Below are positions 6,158-35,615 of a stretch of DNA of 40,095 bases, piece by piece. The notes below the pieces were generated by a model, which did no database searches, was not told where the DNA came from, and was given only the letters and a program-made list of their open reading frames with translations. A program made the position numbers and the translations under genes. This DNA comes from an uncultured Flavobacteriales bacterium (GTDB taxonomy: Bacteria; Bacteroidota; Bacteroidia; Flavobacteriales_G; Salibacteraceae), in contig CAKZKD010000022.1 of NCBI GenBank assembly GCA_937121175.1, forward strand, positions 1 to 40,095, in the 5' to 3' direction. Each line of letters begins with the position of its first letter. Position 1 is the stretch's first letter.

Positions 6158-8398
6158 ATGAAACTTCGAACACTTGCAAAATATACTTACCTATCATTAC
6201 TAACACTTATTATCATTTCTTGTGCTAAACAGCCACAAACAGAACAACAACGCTGGGAGCTACGTGCTGCTAATACAGAGATCTTCAGAGATGATTTTGG
6301 CGTACCACACATATATGGAAAAACGGATGCCGATGCTGTTTTCGGCTTGCTATATGCACAATGCGAAGATGATTTTAACAGAGTAGAGCAAAACTATATC
6401 TGGGCAACCGGGCGATTGGCAGAAGTTGAAGGAGAAGAAGCTTTATATAGCGATTTACGGGCAAAGTTATTTATGACAGAAGAAGAAGCAAAAGCCAATT
6501 ATGATAAAAGTCCTGACTGGCTTAAAGAGTTATGCGATGCCTTTGCTGATGGCATTAATTATTATCTGCATACACATCCTGAGGTAAAACCTCGATTGTT
6601 AACTCGTTTTGAACCATGGATGCCCATGTATTTTAGTGAAGGATCAATAGGAGGAGATATTGAGCGCGTATCTACAAAAGCAATAAAAACTTTTTACGAA
6701 AAGGAACAACCATCGCTTTCATTAAATGAAGTTAACGATGGGTTAATACGTCTCGCTGACAACGAACCAAGAGGTTCCAACGGGTTTGCTATCTCAGGAA
6801 AATTAACCGAATCGGGTAATACAATGTTGCTTATCAATCCACACACATCCTTTTTCTTTCGAGGAGAAGTACATGTAGTTAGTGAAGAAGGGTTAAATGC
6901 TTATGGTGCTGTAACTTGGGGGCAATTTTTTGTTTATCAGGGATTTAACGAAGAAACAGGCTGGATGCATACTTCAACTTATACAGATGTTATAGACGAT
7001 TTTGTTGAAACTGTTGTAAAAAATGAGGATGGACTAAAATATAAATATGGTGATGAATTACGACCAGTAGAAACGTTAGAAGTTGCACTTAAATACAAAG
7101 AAAATGAAGAAATTAAAAAGCGTGACTTCACCATGTATCGTACCCATCACGGACCAATTACACAAAAAATTGACGATAAATGGGTGGCAACAGCTATGAT
7201 GTGGGACCCTGTAAAGGCGCTAACCCAGTCTTTCACCAGAACAAAACTAAACGGGCATAAGGCATTCAGAGAAATGATGAACATACGTACCAACTCGTCC
7301 AACAATACCGTTTATGCCGATGCACAAGGAAATATAGCTTACTATCATGGTAATTTTATTCCTATGAGAGACGTGAAATTTGATTATACAAAGCCTGTAG
7401 ATGGCAGTAATCCAGCCACCGACTGGAAAGGGTTGCACACAGTAGATGAAGCAATCACTGTAATCAACCCTCCTAATGGTTGGATACAAAACTGTAACTC
7501 AACCCCTTTTACAAGTGCCGATGAATATAGCCCAAAGGTTGAAGACTATCCTCGGTACATGTCGAGAAATCGTGAGAACTTTCGTGGTGTACATGCTATA
7601 CGATTACTGAAAAAAGCAGATAAACTAAACCTCGACAAATTGATTGAAATGGCATACGACCCTTATTTACCTGCTTTTGAAGTACTCATTCCAGGATTAG
7701 TAGCGGCATATGACCAATCCCCAAATCCTGAAAAATCATTAAAAGTGCCAATCGAAGTCTTGCGAAACTGGGATTTTGCCGTATCCAAAGAATCTGTAGC
7801 CATGTCATTAGCCCACTATTATGGCATTATGTATTCGCGAGAAGGGAAATCTCCTAAAAAACTAAGCTATATGGAACGTATAAACTACTTCGGTTCCGAA
7901 TCACCGGAGGAAGAACGCCTTGCAATTTTCCAAAAAACTATAGCCAAATTAACAGAAGATTTCGGCAATTGGAATACGCCCTGGGGTGAAATTAACAGAT
8001 ATCAACGACTTAACGGAGATATTAGACAGCCTTTTAATGATGATAAACCAAGTACACCGGTAGGATTGGCATCAGGCAGATGGGGAGCATTAGCCTCTTT
8101 CGGGGCAAGGTCATACAACGGCACAAAACGTATATACGGTACATCAGGTAACAGTTTTGTAGCTGTAGTAGAATTTGGAGATAAACTAAAAGCCAAAAGT
8201 ATGCTGGCAGGTGGTCAAAGTGGCGACCCCGATTCGCCCCATTTTGATGATCAGGTACAACCTTATATAGATATACAATTTAAAGATGTTGCCTACTATC
8301 GGGAAGATGTAGAAAAGAGAGCCAAAAGTACATATCACCCGGGAAAAAAAATAATTAGTACTTCTATAGAAGCACTCCTCACAATTCAACAGAGATAA
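6158..8398 (+). CDS. Penicillin acylase family Ntn-hydrolase lipoprotein
   Basis: A 746-residue member of the penicillin/acyl-homoserine-lactone/aculeacin acylase family (S45). These enzymes hydrolyse an amide bond between an acyl group and an amine. The N-terminus ends in the lipobox IIIS-C (Cys22), so the product is a lipoprotein. The segment FRDDFGVPHIYG (about 43-54) opens the alpha chain. EPRGSNGFAISG contains the G-S junction at Ser207, the autocatalytic nucleophile that becomes the beta-chain N-terminus. Length and order are normal for the family. As first gene of the fifteen-gene operon it sits behind operator A. In this context it would remove N-acyl caps from peptides or amino acids; acyl-homoserine lactones or beta-lactams are alternative substrates. 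The substrate cannot be read from sequence. Confidence 0.88.
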   Translation: MKLRTLAKYTYLSLLTLIIISCAKQPQTEQQRWELRAANTEIFRDDFGVPHIYGKTDADAVFGLLYAQCEDDFNRVEQNYIWATGRLAEVEGEEALYSDLRAKLFMTEEEAKANYDKSPDWLKELCDAFADGINYYLHTHPEVKPRLLTRFEPWMPMYFSEGSIGGDIERVSTKAIKTFYEKEQPSLSLNEVNDGLIRLADNEPRGSNGFAISGKLTESGNTMLLINPHTSFFFRGEVHVVSEEGLNAYGAVTWGQFFVYQGFNEETGWMHTSTYTDVIDDFVETVVKNEDGLKYKYGDELRPVETLEVALKYKENEEIKKRDFTMYRTHHGPITQKIDDKWVATAMMWDPVKALTQSFTRTKLNGHKAFREMMNIRTNSSNNTVYADAQGNIAYYHGNFIPMRDVKFDYTKPVDGSNPATDWKGLHTVDEAITVINPPNGWIQNCNSTPFTSADEYSPKVEDYPRYMSRNRENFRGVHAIRLLKKADKLNLDKLIEMAYDPYLPAFEVLIPGLVAAYDQSPNPEKSLKVPIEVLRNWDFAVSKESVAMSLAHYYGIMYSREGKSPKKLSYMERINYFGSESPEEERLAIFQKTIAKLTEDFGNWNTPWGEINRYQRLNGDIRQPFNDDKPSTPVGLASGRWGALASFGARSYNGTKRIYGTSGNSFVAVVEFGDKLKAKSMLAGGQSGDPDSPHFDDQVQPYIDIQFKDVAYYREDVEKRAKSTYHPGKKIISTSIEALLTIQQR

Positions 8399-8421
8399 AA
8401 AACACAATAAATTAAAACATT

Positions 8422-9321
8422 ATGAAAACCATTCAAAAACTATTTTTTATCATCTTATTAACAACAACTACTATGGTGCAAGCTCAGAACAAAAAATTAA
8501 AAATCTACATTTCTGCCGATATGGAAGGTGTGGTCGGAGCAGTAACAGGCGAACAATTGGGTCCCGGAGGGTTTGAATACGAGCGCTTCCGCAAGTTCAT
8601 GACTGCCGAAGTAAATGCTTGTATAAAAGCAGCTCGTGAAGCAGGAGCAGATGAGATTTTGGTTAGTGATTCGCATGGAAACGGGCAGAATATTCTTATT
8701 GAGAAACTCCCTGATGATGTGATGATTGTTAGATCTTGGCCACGTATGTTGGGGATGATGGAAGGTATTGACGATTCTTTTGATGGAGCTATATTTTTGG
8801 GCTATCACGCCAGTACTAATAGTAAAGAAGGAGTTAGAGCACACACCATGTCGAGTGCCAATATTACCTCTGTTAAAATCAACAATATTGTAATGCCGGA
8901 GGCAGGTATTAATGCACTAATTGCTGGGCATTTCAATGTTCCGATCATCCTAATTACCGGAGACGATATTGCTGTGAAAGAAACACAAAACCTGCTGGGA
9001 GATACAGAAGGTGCCGTAGTAAAGTGGGCAAATAGCTTTCATTCGGCAAAAACCCTTACTCCGAATGCTGCCTATGAAGTAATCGGCAACAAAACAAAAG
9101 CAGCCATCAAAAGAATTAAAGAGTTTAAACCTTACAAACTAAAAGGGCCGTTAACGCTTGACCTTAGCCTGAAAAACTATCGTCCTGTAGAACTTTTACA
9201 ACATTACCCAGGAGCAAAACGAATTGATTCGCATACCATTCGTTTCGTTGGGAAAGATATTATTGAAATATCTACATTCCTGCGATTTGTAACTGGATAT
9301 AATATTGCTTTAAAACCCTAA
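8422..9321 (+). CDS. M55 family D-aminopeptidase (DppA-like), exported
   Basis: A 299-residue M55 metallopeptidase preceded by a signal peptide ending near MVQAQ. M55 enzymes such as Bacillus DppA are zinc D-aminopeptidases acting on D-Ala-D-Ala and related peptides, and assemble as decamers (family knowledge). Visible metal-site motifs are ISADMEGVVG (Asp33, Glu35), DSHGNG, FLGYHAST and PEAGINA. Bacillus DppA is cytoplasmic, so the signal peptide is notable: it places the activity in the periplasm with the other exported hydrolases. It starts 23 bp after the acylase stop and ends 5 bp before the next start, clearly the same operon. Confidence 0.88.
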   Translation: MKTIQKLFFIILLTTTTMVQAQNKKLKIYISADMEGVVGAVTGEQLGPGGFEYERFRKFMTAEVNACIKAAREAGADEILVSDSHGNGQNILIEKLPDDVMIVRSWPRMLGMMEGIDDSFDGAIFLGYHASTNSKEGVRAHTMSSANITSVKINNIVMPEAGINALIAGHFNVPIILITGDDIAVKETQNLLGDTEGAVVKWANSFHSAKTLTPNAAYEVIGNKTKAAIKRIKEFKPYKLKGPLTLDLSLKNYRPVELLQHYPGAKRIDSHTIRFVGKDIIEISTFLRFVTGYNIALKP

Positions 9322-9326
9322 TTAGC

Positions 9327-10382
9327 ATGAAAAAAACAGCGATTGTAATAACAGGAGGAGATTTACATACCAATTTTGCAAAAACAACCCATGGATTGAT
9401 TAGAGGGTCAGATCGTTTTAAGTTATTAGCCGTTGTAGATCACAATCATGCAGGTTCGGATGCAGGAGAAATTCTGGACGGTAAAAAGAGGAATATTCCA
9501 GTTATTGGTTCTATAGATGAAGCTACAAAACAATTAAATAATATCGATTGTCTTATCGTAGGAGTAGCTACCAAAGGTGGAGTTCTATCTGAGATCTTAT
9601 TAAAAACTATTCGTAAAGCCATTACCTATAAAATCAATATTATAAATGGGTTACATCATTTATTGTGCGAACAACAAGATATTGTAAAACTGGCTGAAGA
9701 ATATGGCGTAGAGTTAATAGATATCCGTAAGCCAAAATCTATCAAAGAGCTGCATTTTTGGACTGGTGAAATTTTCAATATTGATGTTCCTATTGTTGCT
9801 GTTTTAGGAATGGACTGCGCCATGGGCAAACGTACCACAACCAGACTTATGCTGGAAGCTTGTAAGGAAGAAAATATAAAAGCAGAGATGATTTACACCG
9901 GACAAACCGGTTGGATGCAAGGAAGTAAGTATGGTTTTATCTTCGATTCTACACTTAATGATTTTGTTTCAGGTGAATTGGAACATGCGATTGTTTCTTG
10001 TTGGCAAAAAGAAAAACCGGATATGATCCTTTTGGAAGGTCAGTCTAGTCTTAGAAACCCTAGCGGTCCTTGTGGTTTAGAGATGCTTATTTCAGGAAAT
10101 GCAAAAAAAGTGATTTTGGTGTGTGCTCCCGGAAGAAAATATTTTGATCAGGAACCCGAATGGGGGGAAATACCTTCTATTGAATCTGAAATAGAAATCA
10201 TCAAAAAGTTTAATAGCGAAGTCATTGGATTGGCTTTAAATACAGAAGGGCTTACTTCTGAAGAAGCCAAAACGATACAATCCGAATTAGAAGCCTCATT
10301 AAATATACCGGTTGTTATTCCTATACAAGAAGGTGTTCAAAAATTTATTACCGCGCTAAAAATAACAGTTCATGAAGATTAA
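9327..10382 (+). CDS. dgcN: DUF1611 protein, DgcN-type D-glutamate N-acetyltransferase
   Basis: A 351-residue cytosolic protein with no signal peptide. An N-terminal Rossmann-like half (about 1-140) is followed by a P-loop domain with GMDCAMGKRTT (about 168-178), and then LLEGQSSLRNP and VCAPGRKYF. This is the DUF1611 architecture. A DUF1611 protein called DgcN, acting with the epimerase-like DgcA, was reported in marine proteobacteria to acetylate D-glutamate, after which DgcA racemises N-acetyl-D-glutamate. The gene overlaps the epimerase gene by 11 bp, the same pairing, which supports the assignment. The older database label for this family is NAD-dependent epimerase/dehydratase, which the P-loop does not support. 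The transfer to a flavobacterium is inference. Confidence 0.8.
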   Translation: MKKTAIVITGGDLHTNFAKTTHGLIRGSDRFKLLAVVDHNHAGSDAGEILDGKKRNIPVIGSIDEATKQLNNIDCLIVGVATKGGVLSEILLKTIRKAITYKINIINGLHHLLCEQQDIVKLAEEYGVELIDIRKPKSIKELHFWTGEIFNIDVPIVAVLGMDCAMGKRTTTRLMLEACKEENIKAEMIYTGQTGWMQGSKYGFIFDSTLNDFVSGELEHAIVSCWQKEKPDMILLEGQSSLRNPSGPCGLEMLISGNAKKVILVCAPGRKYFDQEPEWGEIPSIESEIEIIKKFNSEVIGLALNTEGLTSEEAKTIQSELEASLNIPVVIPIQEGVQKFITALKITVHED

Positions 10383-11436
10383 AGAAATTAAAGCCTTTTC
10401 AAAAAATTTAGCACTTACCAAGCCTTATAGCATTGCTTATAAAACCGTTTCTGATGTAGAAAGTGCTTTTCTTTTTATTACTCTCGAAAATGGAATTACC
10501 GGTATAGGAGCTGCTAATCCAGCAAAAGAAGTGGTTAATGAAACACCTGCACAAACACTTCAGAATTGTCAATCAGATTACTTTCAATCCTTTATTGGTA
10601 AAGACATTCGACATTTCAGAAAAATGATTCAAGATGTTCATGCTACTTTCCCCGATAAACCGGGTACACAGGCCATTTGGGACATTGCCTTGCATGATAC
10701 TTTCGCTAAATATTTAGGCATTCCCGTAGTGGAAATCTACGGACAGCATATCAAATCGTTACCAACCTCAGTAACTATTGGTATTATGGGGGTAGAGGAA
10801 ACGCTAAAAGAGGCTGCCGAATACAAAAAGTTAGGTTTTAAAGTGCTTAAAGTAAAAACCGGAGAATCGGTTGAATTGGATATTGAACGAATCTTAAAAC
10901 TACACGAACAACATAATGATATGATTATCCGTGTAGATGCCAATCAGGGATATGGGAAAAAAGAATTGCTGCAGTTTGTACAAGCAACAGAAAAAGCAAA
11001 TTTAGAGGTAATAGAGCAGCCTGTTCCTGTGGGGAAAGAACAAGAACTGACTGGAGTAGATGAAAAAATCAGGAAAATACTGGTCGCAGACGAAAGCCTA
11101 AAAAACGGTACCAGTGCCATACAATATGCTACACTTCCTCAACCTTTTGGTATCTACAATATCAAATTGATGAAATGTGGAGGGCTTATGGGAGCGTTTG
11201 AAATTGCAACCATCGCCAAAGCCGCTAATATTAACCTGTTTTGGGGTTGTAATGACGAGAGTATCGTAAGCATCACTGCTGCAATACATGCGGCATTTGC
11301 CTGCCCTCATACCAAATACCTTGATTTGGACGGTAGTTTTGATCTGGCAGAAGACTTGGTCAATGGAGGTTTTTCACTAAAAGATGGCATTCTAAGTATC
11401 AATAAAAAACCAGGGTTCGGTTTTGAGCTTACATAA
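10372..11436 (+). CDS. dgcA: Enolase-superfamily epimerase, DgcA / dipeptide epimerase
   Basis: A 354-residue cytosolic enzyme of the muconate-lactonising subgroup. Catalytic and metal residues are complete: K-V-K of LKVKTG (Lys160, Lys162), Asp189 in RVDANQGY, Glu215 in VIEQPV, Asp240 in ADESL and Lys265 in YNIKLMK. Relatives are either L-Ala-D/L-Glu epimerases that recycle murein peptides or DgcA, the N-acetyl-D-glutamate racemase. The 11-bp overlap with the DUF1611 gene favours the DgcA role. Either reading gives a route from D-glutamate, a peptidoglycan residue, to the L-form. It is one of only two cytosolic enzymes in the first half of the operon. Confidence 0.85.
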   Translation: MKIKEIKAFSKNLALTKPYSIAYKTVSDVESAFLFITLENGITGIGAANPAKEVVNETPAQTLQNCQSDYFQSFIGKDIRHFRKMIQDVHATFPDKPGTQAIWDIALHDTFAKYLGIPVVEIYGQHIKSLPTSVTIGIMGVEETLKEAAEYKKLGFKVLKVKTGESVELDIERILKLHEQHNDMIIRVDANQGYGKKELLQFVQATEKANLEVIEQPVPVGKEQELTGVDEKIRKILVADESLKNGTSAIQYATLPQPFGIYNIKLMKCGGLMGAFEIATIAKAANINLFWGCNDESIVSITAAIHAAFACPHTKYLDLDGSFDLAEDLVNGGFSLKDGILSINKKPGFGFELT

Positions 11437-11444
11437 AAAGTATA

Positions 11445-13073
11445 ATGATGAAACACTTATTTAACGCCCTTCTTGCAATTATTTTGATAAGTTGTACAGA
11501 GCAACAAAGAATACCAGAATACGCTGAAAAAGTTGATAATGTGTTTAGCGACTGGAAACCTACTGAACCTGGAGCAGCAATAGGTATTTACCGTGGAGGG
11601 AAGTTAGAATATGCCAAAGGATATGGCATGGCAAACATGGATTATGGTATTGCCAATACGACAAATTCGGTGTTTAGAATTGCTTCAACATCCAAGCAAT
11701 TTACAGCTGCCTGCATAATATTACTTGCAGAACAAGGTCAGTTGAGCCTTGATAACCCATTGAGTAAGTTTTTTCCTGAATTCCCTGATTATGCAAAAGA
11801 CATCAGCCTACGTCATTTACTTAATCATACCAGCGGTATTAGAGATTATTTGCAACTTGTTTATCTGGCAGGGTTTGATGATGATGACTTCTATACCGAT
11901 GAGGAAGTAATGAACCTTTTGGTAAAACAAAAGAACCTCAATTTTGCCACAGGCGATGAGTTTCTATATTCCAATAGTGGTTATTGGCTATTGGGACAGG
12001 TCGTTTTGAAAGTATCGGGAACTACACTAGCAGAATTTGCCGAGCAAAATATTTTCAAACCTTTGCAAATGAAAAACACCCATTTTCATGATAACAATTC
12101 CATGATTGTGCCAAACAGGGCTTCAGGTTACACACCTACCGATGATGGCTTTGAAATCAGTATGACACAGCTTGAAATGATTGGCGATGGCGGAGTATTC
12201 ACAACCATAGAAGATTTAGGTAAGTGGGTAGATAATTTTAGCACACATACTGTTGGTAGCCAGGAATTCACTCAAAAAATGCAAACTAAGGCTATATTGA
12301 ATAATGGCGATACCCTTGATTATGCGCTCGGCCTAAATATTACCAAATACAATGACAAACCTGTTGTGCGCCACGGTGGTGCTTTTGTTGGTTACAGGGC
12401 CGAATTGATGCGTTTTCCAGAGGAAAATATTGCCATTGCTGTTCTAACAAACAGAAGTGATGGTCAAGCGGGTCAGCACGCAAACCAAATTGCAGATGTC
12501 TTATTTGATAAACCCAAAACATCTGTTGACAAAATAGAGCCACAGAAAACCTCAGAGGACTATGTCACCACACCAGAAAAATTGGCTCATTATGTAGGTA
12601 GTTACTGGAACGACACCTTGATGAAGGGCAATAAAGTCAGCATTAAAAATGACACCCTCTACCTTGATAACAATAGACTAGTAGCTATAGAATCCGGGCA
12701 GTTTAGCTTAGTAAAGTATCCGAAAATTAAAGTAAGTTTTAGGGATGATAGGATGACAATACAGTTTCCAGGAAGAGACCCGCAGATATATACTGCTTAT
12801 GAACTACCTATATATACAGCATCAGACCTCAACACATTTGCAGGAAGTTATTACAGTGAAGAACTACAAGTTTCTTATTTACTTCAACTGCAAGGAAAGG
12901 AGTTACTACTATATATAAATGGTAAGAAAATTTCACCACTTGTCTCTGGCAAGGAGAATATTTTTGTGAATGATGCTATGGGTACTTTTGAGTTTATCAG
13001 GACAAAAAACAAGTCGACAGGTTTTATACTGACCTCAGGTCGGGTTAAAAACTTACTGTTCAAAAAAGAATAA
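11445..13073 (+). CDS. S12 serine hydrolase lipoprotein with C-terminal beta domain
   Basis: A 542-residue beta-lactamase/DD-peptidase-fold enzyme. The lipobox ILIS-C (Cys17) makes it a lipoprotein. The three active-site motifs are present: S-T-S-K (Ser81-Lys84), Y-S-N in FLYSNSGYW, and H-G-G in VRHGGAFVG. The C-terminal 180 residues contain two beta-rich repeats starting LAHYVGSYWNDTL and LNTFAGSYYSEEL. Relatives include D-aminopeptidases, esterases and D-stereospecific amidases (clan SE). It closely resembles the 570-residue product at 30408-32120 in motifs and layout. As there, it is directly linked to an N-acyl-D-amino-acid deacylase gene, so the pair appears duplicated. Substrate unknown; D-peptides are likely from context. 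Confidence 0.85.
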   Translation: MMKHLFNALLAIILISCTEQQRIPEYAEKVDNVFSDWKPTEPGAAIGIYRGGKLEYAKGYGMANMDYGIANTTNSVFRIASTSKQFTAACIILLAEQGQLSLDNPLSKFFPEFPDYAKDISLRHLLNHTSGIRDYLQLVYLAGFDDDDFYTDEEVMNLLVKQKNLNFATGDEFLYSNSGYWLLGQVVLKVSGTTLAEFAEQNIFKPLQMKNTHFHDNNSMIVPNRASGYTPTDDGFEISMTQLEMIGDGGVFTTIEDLGKWVDNFSTHTVGSQEFTQKMQTKAILNNGDTLDYALGLNITKYNDKPVVRHGGAFVGYRAELMRFPEENIAIAVLTNRSDGQAGQHANQIADVLFDKPKTSVDKIEPQKTSEDYVTTPEKLAHYVGSYWNDTLMKGNKVSIKNDTLYLDNNRLVAIESGQFSLVKYPKIKVSFRDDRMTIQFPGRDPQIYTAYELPIYTASDLNTFAGSYYSEELQVSYLLQLQGKELLLYINGKKISPLVSGKENIFVNDAMGTFEFIRTKNKSTGFILTSGRVKNLLFKKE

Positions 13074-13092
13074 AAACTAAAGCGAGCAGAAT

Positions 13093-14571
13093 ATGAGAAA
13101 GTTCCATTATATCATTTCATTGAGTATCCTTTTAGTTTTGTTAAATCAATGTAAACCAACAGAAGAAAAGAACCTGCTTATACAAAATGCTACAATTATT
13201 GATGGCACAGGAGCCGACCGTTTTGTGGGTTCTCTTAGAATTAAGGGCAGCTTGATAATTGATATTGGTGATTTGACAGTATTCGATACTGATTCAATTA
13301 TAGATGGAACCGGGATGATATTAAGTCCGGGTTTTATTGATACGCATAGCCATCATGATGGAGACACTCTTCGAACAGTAGAAGCGGCTATTAGTCAAGG
13401 TATAACCACCATAATTGTAGGTCAGGATGGATTTTCCAGACCCTCTTTAAGCAACTATTTCGATTCATTAAAAACATCCCCGTTATCCTTAAATATAGCA
13501 TCGTATGTTGGGCACAATACCGTGAGACAAAAGGTGATGGGTAATGATTTTAAACGGGAAGCTACAATTGATGAAATAGAAGCAATGAAGAAATTAATTG
13601 CCCGCGATATGCAAAGTGGTGCCCTTGGGCTTTCTACAGGGCTGGAATACGACCCGGGAATCTACTCCAATACACAGGAGGTGATTGAAATGGCCAAAGT
13701 AGCTTCGCAATATGGTGGCAGATATATCAGTCATATGCGAAGTGAGGATATGTATTTAGAGCAAAGCATTGATGAGATTTTAAGGGTTGGCAAGGAAACT
13801 AATATGCCCGTGCAAATTTCTCACTTCAAGTTAGCTCGTAAAGGACTATGGGGAAAGGCAGCTAAAATTCTGACTATTCTTGATAGCGCCAGATCCGATG
13901 GTATTGATGTTACTGCCGATATTTATCCGTATCAATACTGGCAGTCCACTATGACGGTGCTCTTTCCAAAACGCGACTTTGATAACAGGGAAAGCGCAGC
14001 ATTCGCTCTTTCAGAACTCACCACGCCAGAAGGGGTAATCGTTAATAAATTCAACGCTAACCCAATTTATGAAGGGCTTACCCTGAAAGAAATTGCAGAC
14101 CTCAGGAAAGAGGATGCTGTTACAACATTTATAACCTTAATAAAAATGTCTCAGGAGACCCCTGGAGAAAGTATTATTGCTAAATCAATGGATTTGGAAG
14201 ATATTAAGACGCTCAGCAGGTGGCCACATATCAATCTATGCTCAGATGGTGCACCTTCGGGTCATCCACGGGGTTGGGGTGCTTTCCCTCGATATCTAAA
14301 TATGGATACTGGTGAATCCCTTGAGACAAAAATTCATAAGATGACTACCCAAGCTGCTGAGAATATGGGTATAGACAGTATTGGCATTATAAAAGAGGGC
14401 TATTATGCTGACCTCTTATTGTTCGGTATAGAATCTTTTAAAGACAAGGCTACTTTTAAAGAAAGCACACTTAAAGCTGAAGGATTACACAAAGTAATTG
14501 TGTCAGGAAAGGTAGTATTTCAAAATAAGGCACCAACCATGATTTATTCTGGAAGGGTGTTAAAGAATTAA
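13093..14571 (+). CDS. N-acyl-D-amino-acid deacylase (D-aminoacylase)
   Basis: A 492-residue amidohydrolase. The metal-site start is PGFIDTHSHHD (His85, His87), followed by ALGLSTGLEYDPG, SHMRSE, QISHFK and LCSDGAPSGHPRGWG, the D-aminoacylase pattern. The family removes the acyl group from N-acyl-D-amino acids to release free D-amino acids. The N-terminus is hydrophobic and ends in Cys20 within LLNQC, an unusual but possible lipobox, so a surface or periplasmic location is likely. Its paralogue is at 32143-33720; both lie next to an S12 hydrolase. It would act after the acylase and D-peptidases. Confidence 0.87.
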   Translation: MRKFHYIISLSILLVLLNQCKPTEEKNLLIQNATIIDGTGADRFVGSLRIKGSLIIDIGDLTVFDTDSIIDGTGMILSPGFIDTHSHHDGDTLRTVEAAISQGITTIIVGQDGFSRPSLSNYFDSLKTSPLSLNIASYVGHNTVRQKVMGNDFKREATIDEIEAMKKLIARDMQSGALGLSTGLEYDPGIYSNTQEVIEMAKVASQYGGRYISHMRSEDMYLEQSIDEILRVGKETNMPVQISHFKLARKGLWGKAAKILTILDSARSDGIDVTADIYPYQYWQSTMTVLFPKRDFDNRESAAFALSELTTPEGVIVNKFNANPIYEGLTLKEIADLRKEDAVTTFITLIKMSQETPGESIIAKSMDLEDIKTLSRWPHINLCSDGAPSGHPRGWGAFPRYLNMDTGESLETKIHKMTTQAAENMGIDSIGIIKEGYYADLLLFGIESFKDKATFKESTLKAEGLHKVIVSGKVVFQNKAPTMIYSGRVLKN

Positions 14572-14590
14572 CATTTAACGAACCAACATT

Positions 14591-26203: not shown

Positions 26204-26248
26204 AATAAAAACCCGAGTTCGATATTGAATTCAATTAAAGTGAAAATT

Positions 26249-27398: not shown

Positions 27399-29261
27399 CT
27401 AATTCTTCCAGTAATTATCTTTCGAATTCGTATCTGGAATATAATCATTCCCTAAGACTATTTTTTGAATTTGTTTTGTTGTTTTCACAATAATCGTCTT
27501 ACTGTCATTTTCTTTCCAAACAGCAGCAGAATAATGGATGTTTTGAGTTGTTTGATCTTTATAAATAACGGTAAGATCTAAAGGCACAGGGAGTTCTCCT
27601 GTTTTTTTAATGGTAATCTGGTAAGAATCTTTGGTTATTTTTTCCAGTTTTTCAATCCCCAAATCAGGAGATGCATTTTCAAAAAACCATGGTTTCCAAA
27701 ACCAATTCAAATTTTGCTGAGACGTTTGATTTACATGATAAAAGAAATCTAACGGTGTAGGGTGTTTACCTCTCCACGTTTCTATATAAGCTGCCAAACA
27801 TTTTTTAAACAATTCCTCACCCAATATATCTTGCAACACATATAAGCCTACGGCAGGTTTCATATACAAATTGAAATAGGAAGTACCTCCTCTTAACATC
27901 GTAGAATTAACCATAGATGCCACATTCCTGTCTGTATTCGCATATTTACTCATACTTCTGGCATAACGGGTTAATCGGTTTAAGGTAGGTTCGGTTTTTT
28001 GCTGATATTTATAAGGCATCATGGCAGCAAAAGCTTCATCCATCCACGCCTGTTCCGTTTCATTAGTCAATACATAAAACGGAAAGTAATTGTGTGCAAT
28101 TTCATGCGCTGTAACATCTACGGTTCGCCCTCTGTTGTCTGCCGAAGGATCATTGGCAATCATCGGGTATTCCATACCGCTGGTTCCATTGGTACCATTA
28201 AATAAAGTCATTGTTGGAAAAGGAAACGGATAGGGAAGTTCGGTAGAAAAATAGTGTATGGATTTTTTGGCAAGTTCGGCAACCTCTATAAAATCTTTGG
28301 ATGCTACCGGGTAAACGGCCTCTATATAAATATCTTTTTCGGTAACCCCTTTTAGCGATGTTCCATCCCAAAGAAAATGATCACTTACCCCAAAGGCAAC
28401 ATCAGAAACGTGATTTGCTTCAAATATCCATTTATTATTGCGAGTGATGGGTTTTCCTGAACGATAATCATTTTGAGTAACGATAGAAACAACAGCATCT
28501 CTCTTTTTTGCTTTTTGATATTTCTTATAAATGCTTTTAGCCAATACTTCGTTCGGGTTTTGAAGCATCCCGGTACCCCATACTAAATAGCCTTTAGGTG
28601 CGGTAACGGTGTAATTATAATTGCCCAAATCGTAATAAAATTCTTGCCCGCCTGAATGGATATTTCTATCCCACCCATTGAGATCGTCATATACAGCCAC
28701 CTTAGGAAACCACTGCCCTAAAAAGAACGAGGTTTCATCTTTGGCTCCCATACGAATATTACTTTTAGAAGGAATGGAAAAACTCCACGCAACTTTTATT
28801 GTAACCGAAGAAGAAGATGCTATGGGTTGCTTCATATCTGCCACTAATTGTGTTCCTTCTATACGATACGGCGTAATCTGGTTATTAATTTTCAATTCTT
28901 TAATAACAACCCCGTTATGCACATCATCAGGGTGTACAACATCATCTCTTATAGTTCCTTTTTTATATAAATTTTGAAAAATATGAAAAACAAGTTGTTT
29001 TAAAGAATCAGGACTGTTGTTTTGATAGTGAATGCTTTCTGTTCCGATAAGTTTTTTTTCACCGGGGATGATTTCTGCATTAATATCATACGAAGCTGTA
29101 TTTTGCCAGTACTTTGCTCCTGGCACACCTAAGGTTGTTCTAGTTTCTTTTTGTAAACCTTTATCAAAATTTTTATGAGTAGGTAATTTTTGTTGACTTT
29201 TTCCAATTAGAGGAAACAACAATACAAAACTATATATTGCAGCCCTTATACATATATTCAT
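27399..29261 (-). CDS. M1 family aminopeptidase, exported
   Basis: A gluzincin of about 620 residues. The ATG at 29261 opens directly with a signal peptide (MNICIRAAIYSFVLLFPLIG); an upstream in-frame ATG at 29285 would overlap the preceding gene by 20 bp. The zinc site is complete: H-E-I-A-H followed after 18 residues by Glu in WMDEAFA. The exopeptidase motif appears as GTSGMEYPM, a variant of GxMEN in which Tyr-Pro replaces Asn. An N-terminal saddle domain (about 50-260) precedes the catalytic domain; the C-terminal helical domain is short. The variant motif may alter N-terminal recognition. It is the last gene of the minus operon. Confidence 0.87.
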   Translation of the reverse strand: MNICIRAAIYSFVLLFPLIGKSQQKLPTHKNFDKGLQKETRTTLGVPGAKYWQNTASYDINAEIIPGEKKLIGTESIHYQNNSPDSLKQLVFHIFQNLYKKGTIRDDVVHPDDVHNGVVIKELKINNQITPYRIEGTQLVADMKQPIASSSSVTIKVAWSFSIPSKSNIRMGAKDETSFFLGQWFPKVAVYDDLNGWDRNIHSGGQEFYYDLGNYNYTVTAPKGYLVWGTGMLQNPNEVLAKSIYKKYQKAKKRDAVVSIVTQNDYRSGKPITRNNKWIFEANHVSDVAFGVSDHFLWDGTSLKGVTEKDIYIEAVYPVASKDFIEVAELAKKSIHYFSTELPYPFPFPTMTLFNGTNGTSGMEYPMIANDPSADNRGRTVDVTAHEIAHNYFPFYVLTNETEQAWMDEAFAAMMPYKYQQKTEPTLNRLTRYARSMSKYANTDRNVASMVNSTMLRGGTSYFNLYMKPAVGLYVLQDILGEELFKKCLAAYIETWRGKHPTPLDFFYHVNQTSQQNLNWFWKPWFFENASPDLGIEKLEKITKDSYQITIKKTGELPVPLDLTVIYKDQTTQNIHYSAAVWKENDSKTIIVKTTKQIQKIVLGNDYIPDTNSKDNYWKN

Positions 29262-29265
29262 CTTA

Positions 29266-30411
29266 TTATTGTTTTTTACGCGCATTGTATTTATCCATTA
29301 TTTTCAGTGTCTCTTTTACAGGGAGTGCTTTCATGGTTCTTCCTTTTTGCCCTGTTATATCGGTTGCCATAAACAGTGAGTTGTAAATAGCTTCTTCAGT
29401 AGCTTCCAGCGTTGCCAAAAACAAAGGCGACATATAATCATTAGCCACTTCTATCGTAGCTTTCTCTCTTTCTTTTGCACTGTATGGAATGCGAAGTTGG
29501 GGGTGCGTGCTAAAGGCAATACTGTAATCGCCACTGCCATTGGATGAAAATGATCCTACTTTTCCAAAAGCCAGAAAAGAACGTTTTGCCAGGCGTTTTA
29601 AATTGCGAGCAGATACGGGGGCATCTGTGGCAATGACAATCATACACGAGCCATCCACCACATAAGGAACATCATTTGCCATATAATAATTGTTGAGTTC
29701 TTTGCCAACCGGAGCACCATTGATGGTAAGAATGCCTCCAAAATTGGTTTGTACAAGCACACCTACGGTATAACCGCCCTTTTCTTTGGGCAACACACGA
29801 GATGAAGTACCGATACCTCCTTTAAAGCCTAAAGCTCTGGTGCCGGTGCCTGCGCCTACATTGCCTTCGGCAACTTTTCCGGTGCTTGCTGTTTGAATCG
29901 CTTCAAAAACATGTTGGCCTTTTACATGGCGGCCTCTGATATCATTGAGCCAGCCATCATTGGTTTCGCCAACCACGGGGTTTACAGATCGAATCTTTTT
30001 ATTTTCGGGGATGGATAAGGTATAATCAACTAAACCGTTTGCCACCAAAAAGGCATTAAGGGTATTGGTGAGGGTAATGGGTGTTTCGATATTGCCAAGC
30101 TCCTCGATTTGTGTAAACCCAAGTGCTTTCCCAAACCCGTTGCCGACAAATACGGCTGCGGGTACTTTTTCCTGAAAGATATTCCCCTGATGCGGTAAAA
30201 TGACAGTTACTCCGGTACGAATGGAGTCGCCAACGATCAATGTTTTTTGTCCAACCGAAACGCCTTGCACATCGGTGATGGCATTGTATTTTCCGGGGGT
30301 GAGGATGCCGGGTTCAATGCCCAAATCTCTGGCTCTTTGCCGCTGATTTTGTGCTTGGGCAATTGAAAGAGCTCCAATCAATACTATTAAAATATATAGA
30401 TGCTTTTTCAT
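29266..30411 (-). CDS. P1 family peptidase, DmpA-type L-aminopeptidase/D-amidase, exported
   Basis: A 381-residue member of the DmpA/BapA family. The precursor self-cleaves before a Ser to give two chains. The junction is visible as VVDGSCMIVIATDAPVS, with nucleophile Ser255. Upstream GGIGTSSRV and VQTNFGGILTINGAPVG are conserved. The signal peptide ends near SIAQAQ. DmpA releases N-terminal L-residues from peptides and also hydrolyses D-amino acid amides and esters, and relatives cleave beta-amino acid peptides (family knowledge). It shares a 4-bp ATGA overlap with the S12 gene upstream, so the two are translationally coupled. In this cluster it is the third unrelated fold able to handle D-residues at N-termini. 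Confidence 0.9.
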   Translation of the reverse strand: MKKHLYILIVLIGALSIAQAQNQRQRARDLGIEPGILTPGKYNAITDVQGVSVGQKTLIVGDSIRTGVTVILPHQGNIFQEKVPAAVFVGNGFGKALGFTQIEELGNIETPITLTNTLNAFLVANGLVDYTLSIPENKKIRSVNPVVGETNDGWLNDIRGRHVKGQHVFEAIQTASTGKVAEGNVGAGTGTRALGFKGGIGTSSRVLPKEKGGYTVGVLVQTNFGGILTINGAPVGKELNNYYMANDVPYVVDGSCMIVIATDAPVSARNLKRLAKRSFLAFGKVGSFSSNGSGDYSIAFSTHPQLRIPYSAKEREKATIEVANDYMSPLFLATLEATEEAIYNSLFMATDITGQKGRTMKALPVKETLKIMDKYNARKKQ

Positions 30412-32120
30412 TCGTTTAAATTTTGCTTTTCAAACCATACGTTTTTGGCCCTGCTGTTTGAGACAAAAGCTCCAATTACATTGCCTTTTTCATTTCGCTT
30501 CAATTTAACGAACTGAAAAGCACTATTGCCTTTTAGCACATCTTTTTTAATGATTTCTATTTCAAAATTTCCGTGCCTGATATGATTCCCAATCAGGTTG
30601 TTATCGTCTATCGAAACATAATAGCTGGTTTTTAGCTCCGGGCTAAAATATTCACCGGCAATGGATTGTAATAGTTCTTTTGAGTAGGGGGTAGATACGG
30701 GTTCAAATGCTTTGAAAACAGTAGAGGAGTTGCCATTAGTTACCGTCATTGTTTTTTCTTTTTTATCCGATTCAAAACGGACTTTTACCGAACTTCCGGA
30801 TAATAGAAACTCATTCTTTTTAACAGGGATTAGCGGAGTTTCATTATTCTCTGAACGAACATATCTTAGTGTATCATTTTTTAAATATATTTTACGCAAA
30901 CCATTACTTCCATCGTCCCAATAAGAAGCAATATATTTGCTGAGTGTTTTGGTAGGAAGTTTTATACCCTTAGGTGTAGTTGTTGCTTTTGTATCACCTT
31001 GTTTATCTGTGAGCAGTATTTCAGCAATTTTATTTGCTTTACTGCCGGGCGATGCGGTCGAAAAATTGGTGATAATGGCTATACTCAGTTTTTCATCCGG
31101 GTAGGTGCCGATAGATGACCGGTAGCCACCAATGGAGCCACCATGCTGCACGCGTTTAACGCCTTTAAAGGAGTCGAGCCGAACACCAAAAGCATAATCA
31201 TTATAAGCTCCATTATTTAATGGGTCGATTGTAAGCATCATCTTAAAAGCCTTTTCCCATCCGGATTTGGGAGTAGAAAAATTTTCCAGCCAGGTTAATA
31301 AATCGGCGGTAGTTGAGTGCATATTTCCGGAGCCTACATAGCCCCAATATTCAACAGCCCTGTCGAACTCGTTTTTTTGTGTGTAATAGGATGTAGCATT
31401 GTTGGGAACCACCCTGTTGTACTTATCTTCTATATAAGTATCCGTCATTCCCAAAGGGTCAAAGACTGATTTTTTCATCCAGCTGGTAAACTCTTCTCCG
31501 GTTACTTCCTCAATAATTTTTGCCATAAACATATAGCCGGTATTGCAGTACAAAAACTCACTTCCCGGTTCAAAGTTCAGATTGCGCTGGTCTTGCATAA
31601 TTCGGTATAAATCTTCATTGGTTCTGGTGTCATCACCTCGCCATCCGGCCAGGGCAAACAAGGTATGCAGGCTTCTCAATCCGCTGGTGTGGTGCAGCAT
31701 TTGCCTGATGGTAATCTTTTCTGCAAATTCGGGCAATTCGGGCATATATTTTTTAATGTTATCATCAACAGAAAGTTTTCCCTGAAGGTGAAGCCGTACA
31801 ATGCCCATCGCTGTGAATTGTTTAGAAACGGAGGCTACATTAAAGCGTGTTCCTGTTGAATTAGGAATAAGATATTCTAAACTTGCCAATCCATAAGCTT
31901 TTGAAAATATCACCTTGCCGCCTTTCATCACCCCTATGGCTCCTCCGGGGTGATTAGGAACATTCCACTGGCTGAAAATTTCATCAATTTTTTGATATTC
32001 CGTAGCTGTTAACTGTGCATAGCTCGCTTGAAAAAAAACACATAAAAGAAAGGTCAATAGTGCTTTTTTAACTACTTTCTGAAGTATTTTATAAGATGAA
32101 TTTACGTAAATAGTTTGCAT
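30408..32120 (-). CDS. S12 serine hydrolase with C-terminal beta repeats, exported
   Basis: A 570-residue S12 enzyme. A 17-residue leader precedes the hydrophobic core, and the signal peptide ends near ASYAQ; a start a few codons later is possible. Motifs: S-V-S-K (Ser97-Lys100), Y-C-N in FLYCNTGYM (Cys replacing the usual Ser) and H-G-G in VQHGGSIGG. Two C-terminal beta repeats begin LSKYIASYWDDGS and LQSIAGEYFSPEL. It is the paralogue of the 542-residue lipoprotein at 11445-13073 and, like it, is a direct neighbour of a D-aminoacylase gene. It follows that gene by 22 bp and overlaps dmpA-like by 4 bp. Confidence 0.85.
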   Translation of the reverse strand: MQTIYVNSSYKILQKVVKKALLTFLLCVFFQASYAQLTATEYQKIDEIFSQWNVPNHPGGAIGVMKGGKVIFSKAYGLASLEYLIPNSTGTRFNVASVSKQFTAMGIVRLHLQGKLSVDDNIKKYMPELPEFAEKITIRQMLHHTSGLRSLHTLFALAGWRGDDTRTNEDLYRIMQDQRNLNFEPGSEFLYCNTGYMFMAKIIEEVTGEEFTSWMKKSVFDPLGMTDTYIEDKYNRVVPNNATSYYTQKNEFDRAVEYWGYVGSGNMHSTTADLLTWLENFSTPKSGWEKAFKMMLTIDPLNNGAYNDYAFGVRLDSFKGVKRVQHGGSIGGYRSSIGTYPDEKLSIAIITNFSTASPGSKANKIAEILLTDKQGDTKATTTPKGIKLPTKTLSKYIASYWDDGSNGLRKIYLKNDTLRYVRSENNETPLIPVKKNEFLLSGSSVKVRFESDKKEKTMTVTNGNSSTVFKAFEPVSTPYSKELLQSIAGEYFSPELKTSYYVSIDDNNLIGNHIRHGNFEIEIIKKDVLKGNSAFQFVKLKRNEKGNVIGAFVSNSRAKNVWFEKQNLNE

Positions 32121-32142
32121 TTTCTTGAATTTTAATCCCTTA

Positions 32143-33720
32143 TTATTTGTTTTTTCTTAACACTTTTCCTGCTTTTATGTTTTGAAATACACCGTTGTCG
32201 ATTGAAAGTTTTCCATTAATTATTACATAAGAGATTCCTTCAGGATATTGGTGTGGTTTTTCAAAAGTTGCTTTGTCAATAACGGTTTTAGGGTCGAAGA
32301 TTACAATATCTGCTTTCATTTGCTCTTTAATCTGCCCTCTGTCTTTTAGTCCAAGCGTAGTTGCAGGCAGTTTTGTCATTTTATAGATAGCCTCCGATAA
32401 TGAAATCGTTCCTTTTTCACGAACATAATGCCCTAAAACTCTTGGAAAAGTACCGTACCACCGTGGGTGTGGGTGTCCCATTCCGGGTTTTACCAACCTT
32501 CCATCCGAGGCAATCATAGTTTGAGGGTGCTTCATAATGCGTTCTACATCACCTTCATCCATAGCATGAAAAACACAAGATGCACCACCATTCAGCTGGG
32601 CTTCAATCACTAAGTCTGCACCGTTTTCCACCGTTGGTTTTAGCCCTTTTTGTTCACACCAGTATTTTAAAGTTTTCCCTTCCAATTCTGGCATCCATCT
32701 TACTTTGGCAAATTGCACTCTGTTTAAGTCGCTGCCTCCGCGGTCATTTAAAATATTAAAAATGATCCCTGATTTTATACTATCACGCAGCGCAGGCTCT
32801 GACACTCTCTGCTTAAAAGCCTCATTTCCTCCGGCTCTTGCCCAACTGGGAATTAGTACAGATATACCGGTATAACTTGCATTGTATGGGTATTGATCCA
32901 TTTTGATGTCAAGGTCTGCTGCCCTGGCAGAATCTACCATAGCCAGTGTTCTGGTACTTTTACCCCACATAGGTTTGCCGATGACTTTATGGTGGGTGAG
33001 TATCACCGGGATTTCTGCTTCTTTAGAAATAACGATGGCTTCCTGAACCGCATCAAATAAGCCCAGCCCTTCTTCACGCAAATGCGAGGTGTAGATACCA
33101 CCTTCGATTGATGCTACTTTTGAAAGCTCTATAACCTCATCTACTTTCGAAAAGGCTCCGGGTAAATATTTAAGCCCGGTCGAAATTCCATAGGCTCCTT
33201 CCTGCATGGCCTGCCGAACCTGTGCTTTCATTTGGCTGAGTTCGCTTTCGGTGGGAGCCCTGTTTTCCAGCTTCATTACATTTTTTCTTACCCTGTTGTG
33301 TCCTACCAGGTAGGCCACGTTCATCCCTACCCCTATCTGATCGAGCGTGTCCAGATATTGGCCAAAAGGCCAGGGGCCGCCACCGTCAGGGCCGCCGAGA
33401 GCTGTTGTTACACCTTGTCTTACATGGCTTTCGCAATTTGAAAGTTTAAGAATGGGGTCTAAGTGCGCATGCATATCAATAAATCCGGGGGCAACAGCCA
33501 TGCCTTTGGCATCTACCTTTCGGGAAGCTTCGGCGGTTGACAAATCACCGATTTTCACAATCAGTCCATCTTTGATTCCGATATCGGTTTTTACCGATTC
33601 TTTTCCTGAGCCATCGTACACATTTCCGTTTAGGATAATGGTGTCATAGCTTTGTGTGTTGTTACAACTCCATAATGTTAAGATTATGAGAAAAAAAGGG
33701 AGAATCGCTTTAGTATTCAT
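32143..33720 (-). CDS. N-acyl-D-amino-acid deacylase lipoprotein
   Basis: A 525-residue amidohydrolase with lipobox LWS-C (Cys19). The metal site begins PGFIDMHAHLD (His84, His86). GISTGLKYLPG, TSHLREEG, LTHHKVIGKPMWG and IASDGRLVKPGMGHPHPRW follow the D-aminoacylase order. It differs from its paralogue at 13093-14571 in having a longer insertion around residues 330-400, and probably prefers other N-acyl-D-amino acids. It lies 11 bp after the aminotransferase gene, so the D-amino acids it frees could be used directly by that enzyme once taken up. Confidence 0.88.
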   Translation of the reverse strand: MNTKAILPFFLIILTLWSCNNTQSYDTIILNGNVYDGSGKESVKTDIGIKDGLIVKIGDLSTAEASRKVDAKGMAVAPGFIDMHAHLDPILKLSNCESHVRQGVTTALGGPDGGGPWPFGQYLDTLDQIGVGMNVAYLVGHNRVRKNVMKLENRAPTESELSQMKAQVRQAMQEGAYGISTGLKYLPGAFSKVDEVIELSKVASIEGGIYTSHLREEGLGLFDAVQEAIVISKEAEIPVILTHHKVIGKPMWGKSTRTLAMVDSARAADLDIKMDQYPYNASYTGISVLIPSWARAGGNEAFKQRVSEPALRDSIKSGIIFNILNDRGGSDLNRVQFAKVRWMPELEGKTLKYWCEQKGLKPTVENGADLVIEAQLNGGASCVFHAMDEGDVERIMKHPQTMIASDGRLVKPGMGHPHPRWYGTFPRVLGHYVREKGTISLSEAIYKMTKLPATTLGLKDRGQIKEQMKADIVIFDPKTVIDKATFEKPHQYPEGISYVIINGKLSIDNGVFQNIKAGKVLRKNK

Positions 33721-33731
33721 GGTATTTTGTT

Positions 33732-34598
33732 TTAAGTAATAACTTTTTTGTAACTGTTTTTTAGAATCAAAAATGCCTCTTGGAGTTTTTTGGTAACCGA
33801 GCCTACATTTCTATCTTGATAAAACAGGTAGTCATCTATTTGTGTTATCGCTCCAATTTGTGTAGTCGTTCCAGTTAAAAAGGCTTCGTCCATTTTTATA
33901 ATATCTTCTTTTGAAATGGCTTCTTCTTTGACTTCTATACCACAATCTTTGCATAATTGAATCACGATTTGTCGTGTAATTCCATCAAGAATATATTCAT
34001 CGGCAGGATGCGTATACACAACCCCTTTTTTGACAAAAAAGATATTGCTGTGCGAACCTTCGGTTATAAAACCATCTCGAAAAAAAACAGCTTCATGAGC
34101 TTCCTGTTTAATAGCATGATCATTTGCCATAACATTTCCTAATAAAGAGATCATTTTAATATCGCAACGATGCCATCGATAATCGGGCATTGTAATTATT
34201 TTAATTGCATTCTTATTAATACCAGGAAATTTTTTGGGCAGCGCATACATCATTAATGTAGGTACTGCATGATCAGGAAAATCATGTTTTCTTGGAGCCA
34301 CACCTCTAGTTACCTGAATATAAATAAGGCACTCACCTTTATCTATATCAGAAACTTTGAGCAGATCATCTATTTTACCAGGAAGTGTCGTTGTATCAAA
34401 ATCTATATGAATTTTATCAAGACATTCAGACAAACGGTTCAAATGTTCTTTTCCATAAAAGAAAGAACCGTTTTTCTGAGTCATCACTTCATAAATTCCA
34501 TCACCAAATAAAAAGCCCCTATCAAATACAGATATTTTAGCATTTTTATAATCTAAAATCTCATCATTCAGATATACTTTTTTGGGATAATTCCTCAT
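33732..34598 (-). CDS. dat: D-amino acid aminotransferase
   Basis: A 288-residue cytosolic fold-type IV PLP transaminase. Diagnostic D-specific features are Arg98 with R-K-H of TRGVAPRKHDFP (Arg103, His105; substrate carboxylate binding in Bacillus D-AAT), the PLP lysine in RCDIKMISLLGN (Lys148), and ITEGSHSN with Glu180. These separate it from branched-chain L-aminotransferases. It converts D-amino acids with 2-oxoglutarate into 2-oxo acids and D-glutamate. The D-glutamate made here would feed the DgcN/DgcA pair of the opposite operon, a good reason for shared control. It starts 21 bp after the dehydrogenase gene. Confidence 0.9.
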   Translation of the reverse strand: MRNYPKKVYLNDEILDYKNAKISVFDRGFLFGDGIYEVMTQKNGSFFYGKEHLNRLSECLDKIHIDFDTTTLPGKIDDLLKVSDIDKGECLIYIQVTRGVAPRKHDFPDHAVPTLMMYALPKKFPGINKNAIKIITMPDYRWHRCDIKMISLLGNVMANDHAIKQEAHEAVFFRDGFITEGSHSNIFFVKKGVVYTHPADEYILDGITRQIVIQLCKDCGIEVKEEAISKEDIIKMDEAFLTGTTTQIGAITQIDDYLFYQDRNVGSVTKKLQEAFLILKNSYKKVIT

Positions 34599-34619
34599 TT
34601 TTAATTATTAAAATTAGTA

Positions 34620-35615
34620 CTAATTAATATAACCCGGAACCGGTATCGTTGCCATAGTATGTAACCCCGGAGATGCTTTTAAAATACTTTTAACACTGTT
34701 AATGGTAATGGCACAGGTAGCAATATCTCCATTGACACCTGTACCTATTTCCGAAACAAATGAAGGTTCTCCTTTTATAGTAACCCTGTCAAAAGATCTG
34801 GGCTCTCCGATAGCTGCTTTAAAATGCATTTTAATTTTACAATCCCCATTGATATATCCGTGGGAAATCTGCTCCACACCACGGGCATCTCCCTCTTTGA
34901 TATCCATTGATGGAACACTTATGTTGTTTTCAGCAATTACAGGTTGAAGATCTTCTGTTACATTGTCTAATTTAAAGCCTACACTATTTGCCAAAAAATA
35001 AACAGATTCTTTTAATCCAACGTGTCGTAATGTACCGGTCTGCTCTTTGGCTTTGAATGCCACGAGATCAAGGCCGGCACCGATTTTTTGCTGAAAAGGG
35101 ATTCTTCGTGGTGTGGCATCCTGAAAACGCTCTACGGTAATACTTTCTACGTCTTTACATACCGAACTCAATACTGATGGAAGGTAGTCCATCAAAAACC
35201 CGGGGTTAACACCAGTACCCAAACAAGCTACATTATATTTTTTGCATATTGCATCTATACTTTTACTTGCTTTTGGATTTTCTTCCCATGGGTGTGATAG
35301 CTCTTCACATGTTGAAACAATGGGTATACCATGTTTAGCTATATTCTCTATTTGCGATTCTAATTTTTGAATGCTTGACACGGTAGTTAATATAGCAGCA
35401 GCAGGTTTTTCCGGAAGGTTTTGCAAAGCTTCTTCAATAGTGTTTTGAATCAATACACCAGAAGATTCTCCATTAATAAGCTCTCCAAAATCCTGATTCC
35501 TTAAATCGTTATTAATATCAACAGCAGCAATAGTTTTCACCTCTTCTTTATCGTCTATATATTTACCTATTTGCTGACCCAAAGGCCCTAGTCCAATTTG
35601 AATTACAGTAATCAT
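34620..35615 (-). CDS. DapB-fold dehydrogenase (2,4-diaminopentanoate dehydrogenase-like)
   Basis: A 331-residue cytosolic NAD(P)-dependent enzyme and first gene of the minus operon, 81 bp downstream of operator B. The Rossmann motif is IGLGPLGQQIG (Gly8, Gly10, Gly13). CLGTGVNPGFLMDYLP is characteristic of the group containing 2,4-diaminopentanoate dehydrogenase (Ord) and other DapB_N proteins. Ord works in clostridial ornithine oxidation, which runs through D-ornithine, but the aminomutase subunits OraS/OraE are not present in the window. A role as an amine/imine oxidoreductase on a D-amino acid-derived intermediate is more likely here. Exact substrate unknown. Confidence 0.75.
   Translation of the reverse strand: MITVIQIGLGPLGQQIGKYIDDKEEVKTIAAVDINNDLRNQDFGELINGESSGVLIQNTIEEALQNLPEKPAAAILTTVSSIQKLESQIENIAKHGIPIVSTCEELSHPWEENPKASKSIDAICKKYNVACLGTGVNPGFLMDYLPSVLSSVCKDVESITVERFQDATPRRIPFQQKIGAGLDLVAFKAKEQTGTLRHVGLKESVYFLANSVGFKLDNVTEDLQPVIAENNISVPSMDIKEGDARGVEQISHGYINGDCKIKMHFKAAIGEPRSFDRVTIKGEPSFVSEIGTGVNGDIATCAITINSVKSILKASPGLHTMATIPVPGYIN

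Follow-up and report, generated by a model that had tools for sequence, protein, structure and literature searches.

The window analysed here is the whole of contig C22 (CAKZKD010000022.1; 40,095 bp) from an uncultured Flavobacteriales bacterium, the host genome G000, a metagenome-assembled genome (MAG) in 39 contigs. It carries a 35,491-bp tyrosine-recombinase element (about 3655-39145) with tRNA-Pro(TGG)-type attachment (att) sites, and a block of 21 genes makes up nearly all of its cargo. We consider it probable that the element is a mobile locus for the use of peptides with D-residues and/or N-acyl groups. Its gene content, active-site residues, att repeats, interrupted target gene, near-identical copies elsewhere, conserved gene core and fusions of S12 and acylase domains are read directly from the sequence, and we infer from them its substrates, direction of flux, regulation and route of transfer. 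The original prediction, made on the block alone (6158-35615), described a D-amino acid and N-acyl peptide degradation island and overlooked that the block is the cargo of a mobile element; the gene block is real, but the natural unit is 3655-39145.

The boundaries of the element were set by comparison with a Polaribacter MAG (L015), in which homology begins at 3655, and an Aequorivita MAG (G101), with which 39145 is the last common base. The repeat ACCCCGAC, found at both ends, matches the 3' end of tRNA-Pro(TGG), and the right end, AATCCTGCCACCCCGAC, is identical to that 3' end over 17 bp. A tyrosine recombinase and a BfmA/BtgA-type protein are located just within the left end; a 74% DNA relative of the recombinase in another genome (G361) has the same left end, and the recombinase/BfmA pair has other neighbours there. 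The target in the window is a ParB-like gene, whose intact 602-codon homologue in G101 (contig C60, 81% identical) matches the window only to 3656. In L015 the element begins 166 bp past the end of a tRNA-Pro gene. Related elements directly adjoin tRNA-Pro with the same left-end sequence (L176) or lie ~490 bp beyond it with an intermediate repeat between (L177). A site-specific recombinase flanked by att repeats that match a tRNA 3' end identifies this DNA as an integrative element. As in integrative and conjugative elements (ICEs) and integrative and mobilizable elements (IMEs) of Bacteroidota with BfmA/BtgA proteins, there is a tyrosine recombinase, a tRNA-type att repeat pair and a BfmA-family protein; unlike them, the element devotes ~29 kb to a cargo of predicted D-peptide catabolism, and no relaxase or conjugation apparatus was found within 3655-39145 in the open reading frame (ORF) list or by Pfam scans. 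Lacking these genes, it does not qualify as an autonomous ICE or IME.

All 21 ORFs of the block are intact at the predicted coordinates (genes g01 to g21, Table 1), 15 on the plus strand (operon A, 6158-27349) and six on the minus strand (operon B, 35615-27399). The converging operons are 49 bp apart; adjacent genes are mostly separated by <50 bp, with overlaps in several cases. Pfam assigned the acylases and peptidases to S45, M55, S12 (five proteins), Amidohydro_3 (two), S9 (two), S15, M20, M1 and S58/P1, and the remaining proteins to the DUF1611, enolase, alanine racemase, PALP, Aminotran_4 and DAP-dehydrogenase families. By N-terminal inspection, without a trained predictor, a signal peptide or lipobox is present in 16 of the 21 proteins, lipoproteins being g01, g05, g06, g13 and g19, while g03, g04, g14, g20 and g21 have neither and are taken as cytosolic; the predicted split of 16 exported and five cytosolic proteins thus mostly holds. 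Pfam, NCBIfam and PDB searches with motif checks found complete active-site motifs in most block enzymes and bear out most of the predicted family assignments, apart from the DgcA and exported-racemase labels. Most NCBIfam equivalog cut-offs are not reached.

The catalytic set of the dipeptide epimerase g04 is complete (K160/K162, D189/E215/D240, K265 and the DxD motif D318/D320); the KxK, metal ligands, second Lys and DxD are invariant across 72 homologues. The DxD of dipeptide epimerases binds the free amino group of the dipeptide, and the best PDB relative of g04 is the dipeptide epimerase 3rit (316 bits over the full length). The g03-g04 pair had been labelled DgcN/DgcA, and as in the DgcN-DgcA D-glutamate pathway a DUF1611 protein is paired with an enolase-superfamily enzyme of 1,1-proton transfer. 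The two proteins, however, score far under the curated equivalog cut-offs (137 bits against 480 for g03 as DgcN, 130 against 400 for g04 as DgcA), and on the low score and the DxD motif DgcA was rejected in favour of a dipeptide epimerase. All catalytic and metal residues of the enolase-superfamily dipeptide epimerases (PDB 3rit/3ro6, 3jva, 1jpm) are kept, although the gene and its homologues in the core loci are linked to D-aminoacylase, S12, DUF1611 and amino-acid permease genes and not to muropeptide peptidases. An L-Ala-D-Glu specificity was considered from residue 24, which we take to contact the Glu side chain in the Bacillus subtilis epimerase, and was dropped since this position is variable (N in 31, S in 13 and K in 10 of the 72).

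The two D-aminoacylase-family proteins, g06 and g19, share with D-aminoacylase and N-acyl-D-glutamate deacylase (1m7j, 3gip) the fold, the metal-binding His residues and the catalytic Asp366; they differ in an Asp aligned with the metal ligand Cys96, the Cys ligand not being kept, in being exported lipoproteins and in having many relatives fused to S12. The M55 protein g02 retains all ligands, the S58 protein g17 has the DGS cleavage site, and g20 contains the pyridoxal 5'-phosphate (PLP) Lys and the PRxH signature and scores 267.6 bits, just below the 277.5 cut-off. For g21, no other match at E<=1e-40 was found among the 395 Bacteroidia-class genomes of our class-level comparison sample. Alanine racemase uses two bases, Lys39 and Tyr265 (PMC8142540). 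In g12 the Lys39 equivalent is kept (AVIKNN) and His stands at the Tyr265 position (PIGHADG); the "exported racemase" of the original prediction is exported and has the alanine-racemase fold, but the substitution makes racemization doubtful.

In the pathway that we propose, exported acylases (S45 and the two D-aminoacylases) would strip N-acyl caps, and the five S12 proteins with the M55, P1, S9, S15, M20 and M1 enzymes would shorten the chain, either in the periplasm or on the outer face of the cell. Uptake of small peptides and of free D-amino acids would fall to host transporters, since among the scanned ORFs of 3655-39145 there is no SusC/SusD, TonB receptor or transporter of any kind. In the cytosol, the DxD epimerase g04 would invert the second residue of dipeptides, the g20 transaminase and the g14 PLP lyase would deaminate free D-amino acids, and g21 is a predicted amino/imino oxidoreductase; g03 probably primes a D-amino acid, by N-acylation or in another way, in the manner of DgcN for DgcA. 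The block had been called a peptide equivalent of a polysaccharide utilization locus (PUL). Like the PULs of Bacteroidota it clusters exported hydrolases, cytosolic finishing enzymes and a local regulator; but it has no SusC/SusD pair, TonB receptor or transporter, and MocR replaces the hybrid two-component system (HTCS) or extracytoplasmic function (ECF) regulators. It is therefore not a PUL, and by this analogy the resemblance is one of logic only.

Operons A and B are each preceded by a 16-bp motif, AAAATTGGTATRCATT, which lies 96 and 97 bp, respectively, ahead of their first codons, points toward the operon in each case and has no further exact match in the window. A copy with two mismatches lies ~60 bp before the M55 gene in a Balneola MAG (L017), where the leaders no longer align. 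The resident MocR/PdxR regulator consists of a GntR domain and a fold-type-I aminotransferase domain with the aligned Lys in GTFNK. The motif and this MocR, its presumed binding protein, probably join both operons into one regulon. The sequence TGGTATRC is over-represented in the window (8 versus 1.6 expected). One Bacteroidota promoter box (TAnnTTTG) is located at 6119, yet with 43 occurrences against 55 expected the box shows no enrichment in the window and was set aside. An IS3 copy at 36085-37306 is present in G101 too, and its insertion may have separated the MocR gene from a shared operator region.

The whole element recurs in G101 at 99.95% identity (19 differences in 35.5 kb) with the 21-gene order kept, versus 34 differences in 1.2 kb (about 97% identity) between the G101 and host flanks. 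The RpoB proteins of G101 and the host are 76.6% identical, which rules out a single species, and G101 lacks a substantial counterpart to a 5-kb stretch of the host chromosome. In L015 the left part of the element is found at 99.7-99.9% identity near tRNA-Pro, and no near-identical copy of the rest was found in that MAG. The S45 gene g01 is missing from this copy, the leader being joined directly to M55 (L015 9060-9110 versus window 6130-8423); judged by this alignment, the first gene of operon A is a site of gain or loss. The Balneola locus is a rearranged version at about 80% identity, which keeps M55-DUF1611-epimerase and P1-S12-D-aminoacylase at 81-93% amino-acid identity; between both gene sets are an S41 peptidase, a sortilin/BNR protein, an M29-like peptidase, a dicarboxylate symporter and a different MocR. 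Upstream of it (L017 1-3394) are genes for a Cas9-like protein (HNH) and Cas1. Elsewhere, exact left ends are confined to 3 of the 395 class genomes, which belong to a single other family (f56). One condition that would have refuted the original prediction, that no other genome keeps the genes together, is contradicted by the whole order in G101, the rearranged subset in Balneola and a core of three to four genes in most retrieved Bacteroidota loci.

This core was seen in 80 loci retrieved with a DUF1611 alignment, ranked by similarity to the query and not drawn at random. Among the 77 with a callable DUF1611 ORF (including 2 near-identical copies of the window's), nearly all core loci being from Bacteroidota, the epimerase gene accompanies DUF1611 in 73, a D-aminoacylase gene in 65 and both in 61, with an amino-acid permease gene additionally in 30; the median DUF1611-epimerase gap is 4 nt. 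The D-aminoacylase ORF is at least 780 aa in 26 loci, long enough for an S12 fusion, which Pfam confirmed in two. The window has the order g03-g04 (DUF1611-epimerase) followed by g05-g06 (S12, D-aminoacylase). In a DUF1611 tree the window groups with Balneola, Marinicella, Flavobacteriaceae and unplaced Bacteroidetes MAGs. Of 100 relatives in a broader sample, 6 carry DUF1611, which is therefore an accessory gene. On mobilizable Vibrio and Phaeobacter plasmids (L209, L210) DUF1611 stands beside an alanine/ornithine-racemase-family PLP enzyme, so members of this family seem to occur alongside stereo-inverting enzymes of more than one fold. The literature searched contained no mention of "DUF1611" and no paper on a cluster of D-aminopeptidase and N-acyl-D-amino-acid deacylase genes in Bacteroidetes.

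Table 1. Features of the element and of its ends (positions in the window)
Feature	Position	Strand	Remarks
Left att site, core ACCCCGAC at 3658-3665	3655..3665	.	Inside interrupted ParB-like gene
Tyrosine recombinase of the element	3882..5132	+	Pfam Phage_integrase/SAM_5/Arm-DNA-bind_5
BfmA/BtgA-family mobilization protein	5307..5840	-	NCBIfam NF041200, 92.7 bits, cut-off 24
Upstream motif AAAATTGGTATACATT, operon A	6062..6077	+	One of two exact matches in the window
g01, S45 penicillin-acylase-family lipoprotein	6158..8398	+	Ntn Ser in GSN
g02, M55 D-aminopeptidase, DppA-like	8422..9321	+	Metal/catalytic residues all kept
g03, DUF1611 P-loop protein, remote DgcN relative	9327..10382	+	
g04, dipeptide epimerase	10372..11436	+	KxK, D/E/D, K, DxD
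g05, S12 lipoprotein, D-aminopeptidase-like	11445..13073	+	
g06, D-aminoacylase-family lipoprotein (core gene)	13093..14571	+	
g07, S9 peptidase, Dpp5-like	14591..16672	+	
g08, S15 CocE/NonD-family hydrolase	16682..18529	+	
g09, M20 peptidase, glutamate-carboxypeptidase-like	18577..19884	+	
g10, divergent S12	19892..20965	+	
g11, S12 + DUF3471	21085..22689	+	
g12, exported alanine-racemase-fold protein, catalytic Tyr replaced by His	22721..23950	+	
g13, S12 lipoprotein	23973..25085	+	
g14, PLP lyase, D-cysteine desulfhydrase/CuyA-like, cytosolic	25113..26096	+	
g15, S9-type hydrolase	26225..27349	+	Start called is TTG; ATG at 26249
g16, M1 aminopeptidase	27399..29285	-	HEIAH
g17, S58/P1 DmpA-type aminopeptidase	29266..30411	-	DGS autocleavage site
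g18, S12, D-aminopeptidase-like	30408..32120	-	
g19, D-aminoacylase-family lipoprotein	32143..33720	-	
g20, D-amino-acid transaminase	33732..34598	-	RxH signature, PLP Lys
g21, 2,4-diaminopentanoate-dehydrogenase-like oxidoreductase	34620..35615	-	
Upstream motif AAAATTGGTATGCATT, operon B	35697..35712	-	
IS3-family insertion sequence, between operon B and MocR	36085..37306	+	Transposase; imperfect terminal inverted repeats
MocR/PdxR-type regulator, GntR + aminotransferase fold	37358..38848	+	NCBIfam PdxR, 364.7 bits, cut-off 320
Right att site, end AATCCTGCCACCCCGAC (core 39134-39141)	39129..39145	.	Last base common with G101

A catabolic locus for D-residue and N-acyl peptides remains the best reading of the block and the one predicted for it, although a PUL comparison and two enzyme labels attached to that prediction were reduced or withdrawn. 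Several findings weigh against it. L-specific peptidases and esterases also belong to the S12, S58 and amidohydrolase families; family membership therefore does not show D-specificity, and we infer the D-specificity and stereospecificity of the block enzymes from their relatives and active-site residues. About a third of the block genes encode generic peptidases or hydrolases, which makes "dedicated to D-residues" an interpretation; g12 may be no racemase, and no transporter is part of the element. The shared upstream motif is AT-rich and is matched as well by 6 of 1000 shuffled leader pairs, which share an equally long stretch in a count that does not yet include equal spacing. The Polaribacter copy is partial, its contig ending within g04. 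All carriers of the element are MAGs or draft genomes, and the G000 and G101 contigs that bear it consist almost exclusively of mobile DNA, so that the host assignment could be wrong and the host of the contig is uncertain.

An alternative, which we think somewhat less probable than not, is that binning wrongly placed one and the same flavobacterial contig in two or more MAGs and that the spread between families is artefactual, the element itself being real. Even the ParB insertion site is common to G000 and G101, the G000 contig has no ordinary chromosomal gene, and the other exact left ends come from the three f56 genomes only. A partial 16S rRNA gene of G000 (C28:99-962, L124) shows just 89% identity with a genome of the same genus, as against 92% with one from another family, hinting at a mixed bin. 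Against misbinning, the flanks differ by ~3% and the element by 0.05%, the right flanks of G000 and G101 differ, L015 has a distinct chromosomal context at tRNA-Pro, and L017 bears the rearranged version at 80% identity.

The remaining alternatives concern the substrate. One is a locus specific for peptidoglycan stem peptides (L-Ala-D-Glu, D-Ala muropeptides) shed by other bacteria, in which L-Ala-D-Glu would be the substrate of the epimerase, as it is in muropeptide recycling. It would suit the dipeptide epimerase, DUF1611 and the acylases, whose family includes N-acyl-D-glutamate deacylase, and no D-residues are commoner in nature than D-Glu and D-Ala; we find it doubtful, as the window ORFs include no lytic transglycosylase, amidase, NlpC/P60, LD-carboxypeptidase or AmpG-like gene, and residue 24, the presumed Glu contact, is non-basic in most core homologues. 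A general oligopeptide-scavenging island, its D-labels over-annotations of broad families, would fit S9, S15, M20, M1, S12 and S58 and the missed equivalog cut-offs. It is unlikely, given that M55, two D-aminoacylases, the RxH transaminase, the D-cysteine desulfhydrase-like lyase and the dipeptide epimerase, all related to stereochemistry, co-occur, and that the core recurs in 61 loci. The S45 acylase, five beta-lactamase-fold proteins and D-peptidases could also inactivate or consume D-containing antibiotics or lipopeptides (beta-lactams, cyclic lipopeptides), to which a weak S45 match to PvdQ, S12 matches to class C beta-lactamase models and a weak S9 match to lasso isopeptidase would correspond. 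All of these matches are far under curated cut-offs, S45 is missing from the L015 copy, and the core, which has no antibiotic-specific gene, is found in many ordinary freshwater and soil Bacteroidota, so we regard this function as very unlikely. We also judge improbable an extended form of the D-residue and N-acyl peptide reading: a self-contained locus that moves intact between families (and rearranged between phyla), is controlled as one MocR regulon and performs a new two-step stereo-inversion, in which DUF1611 would join a D-amino acid to an aminoacyl group, the DxD epimerase would invert it and a dipeptidase would free the L-amino acid.

In the DNA left of the element (1160-3654), ParB-like and DUF932 genes are collinear with a second G101 locus at 80-83% DNA identity and are probably part of another plasmid or ICE family. 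A second recombinase with an Arm-DNA-binding domain begins right of the right att site (39326-40095) with its own inverted repeat, where the G101 DNA differs; this start suggests that the site has received another element in tandem. No nearly identical plasmids were found in PLSDB for window 1-24000, and the contig ends carry no direct repeats of >=30 bp that would indicate a circular plasmid. A phage origin was rejected, as g03 and the integrase have no relatives among viral contigs.

Cell-wall D-amino acids make up a large, slowly degraded share of marine dissolved organic nitrogen, and the element touches on the question of which bacteria degrade D-containing peptides and by what means. If our reading is true, the D-peptide trait could be gained in one step through a mobile element. 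In Bacteroidota, the conserved operon in which DUF1611 and the dipeptide epimerase stand with an amino-acid permease and a D-aminoacylase, the latter frequently in fusion with S12, is a defined four-gene set that allows a direct test of the role of DUF1611.

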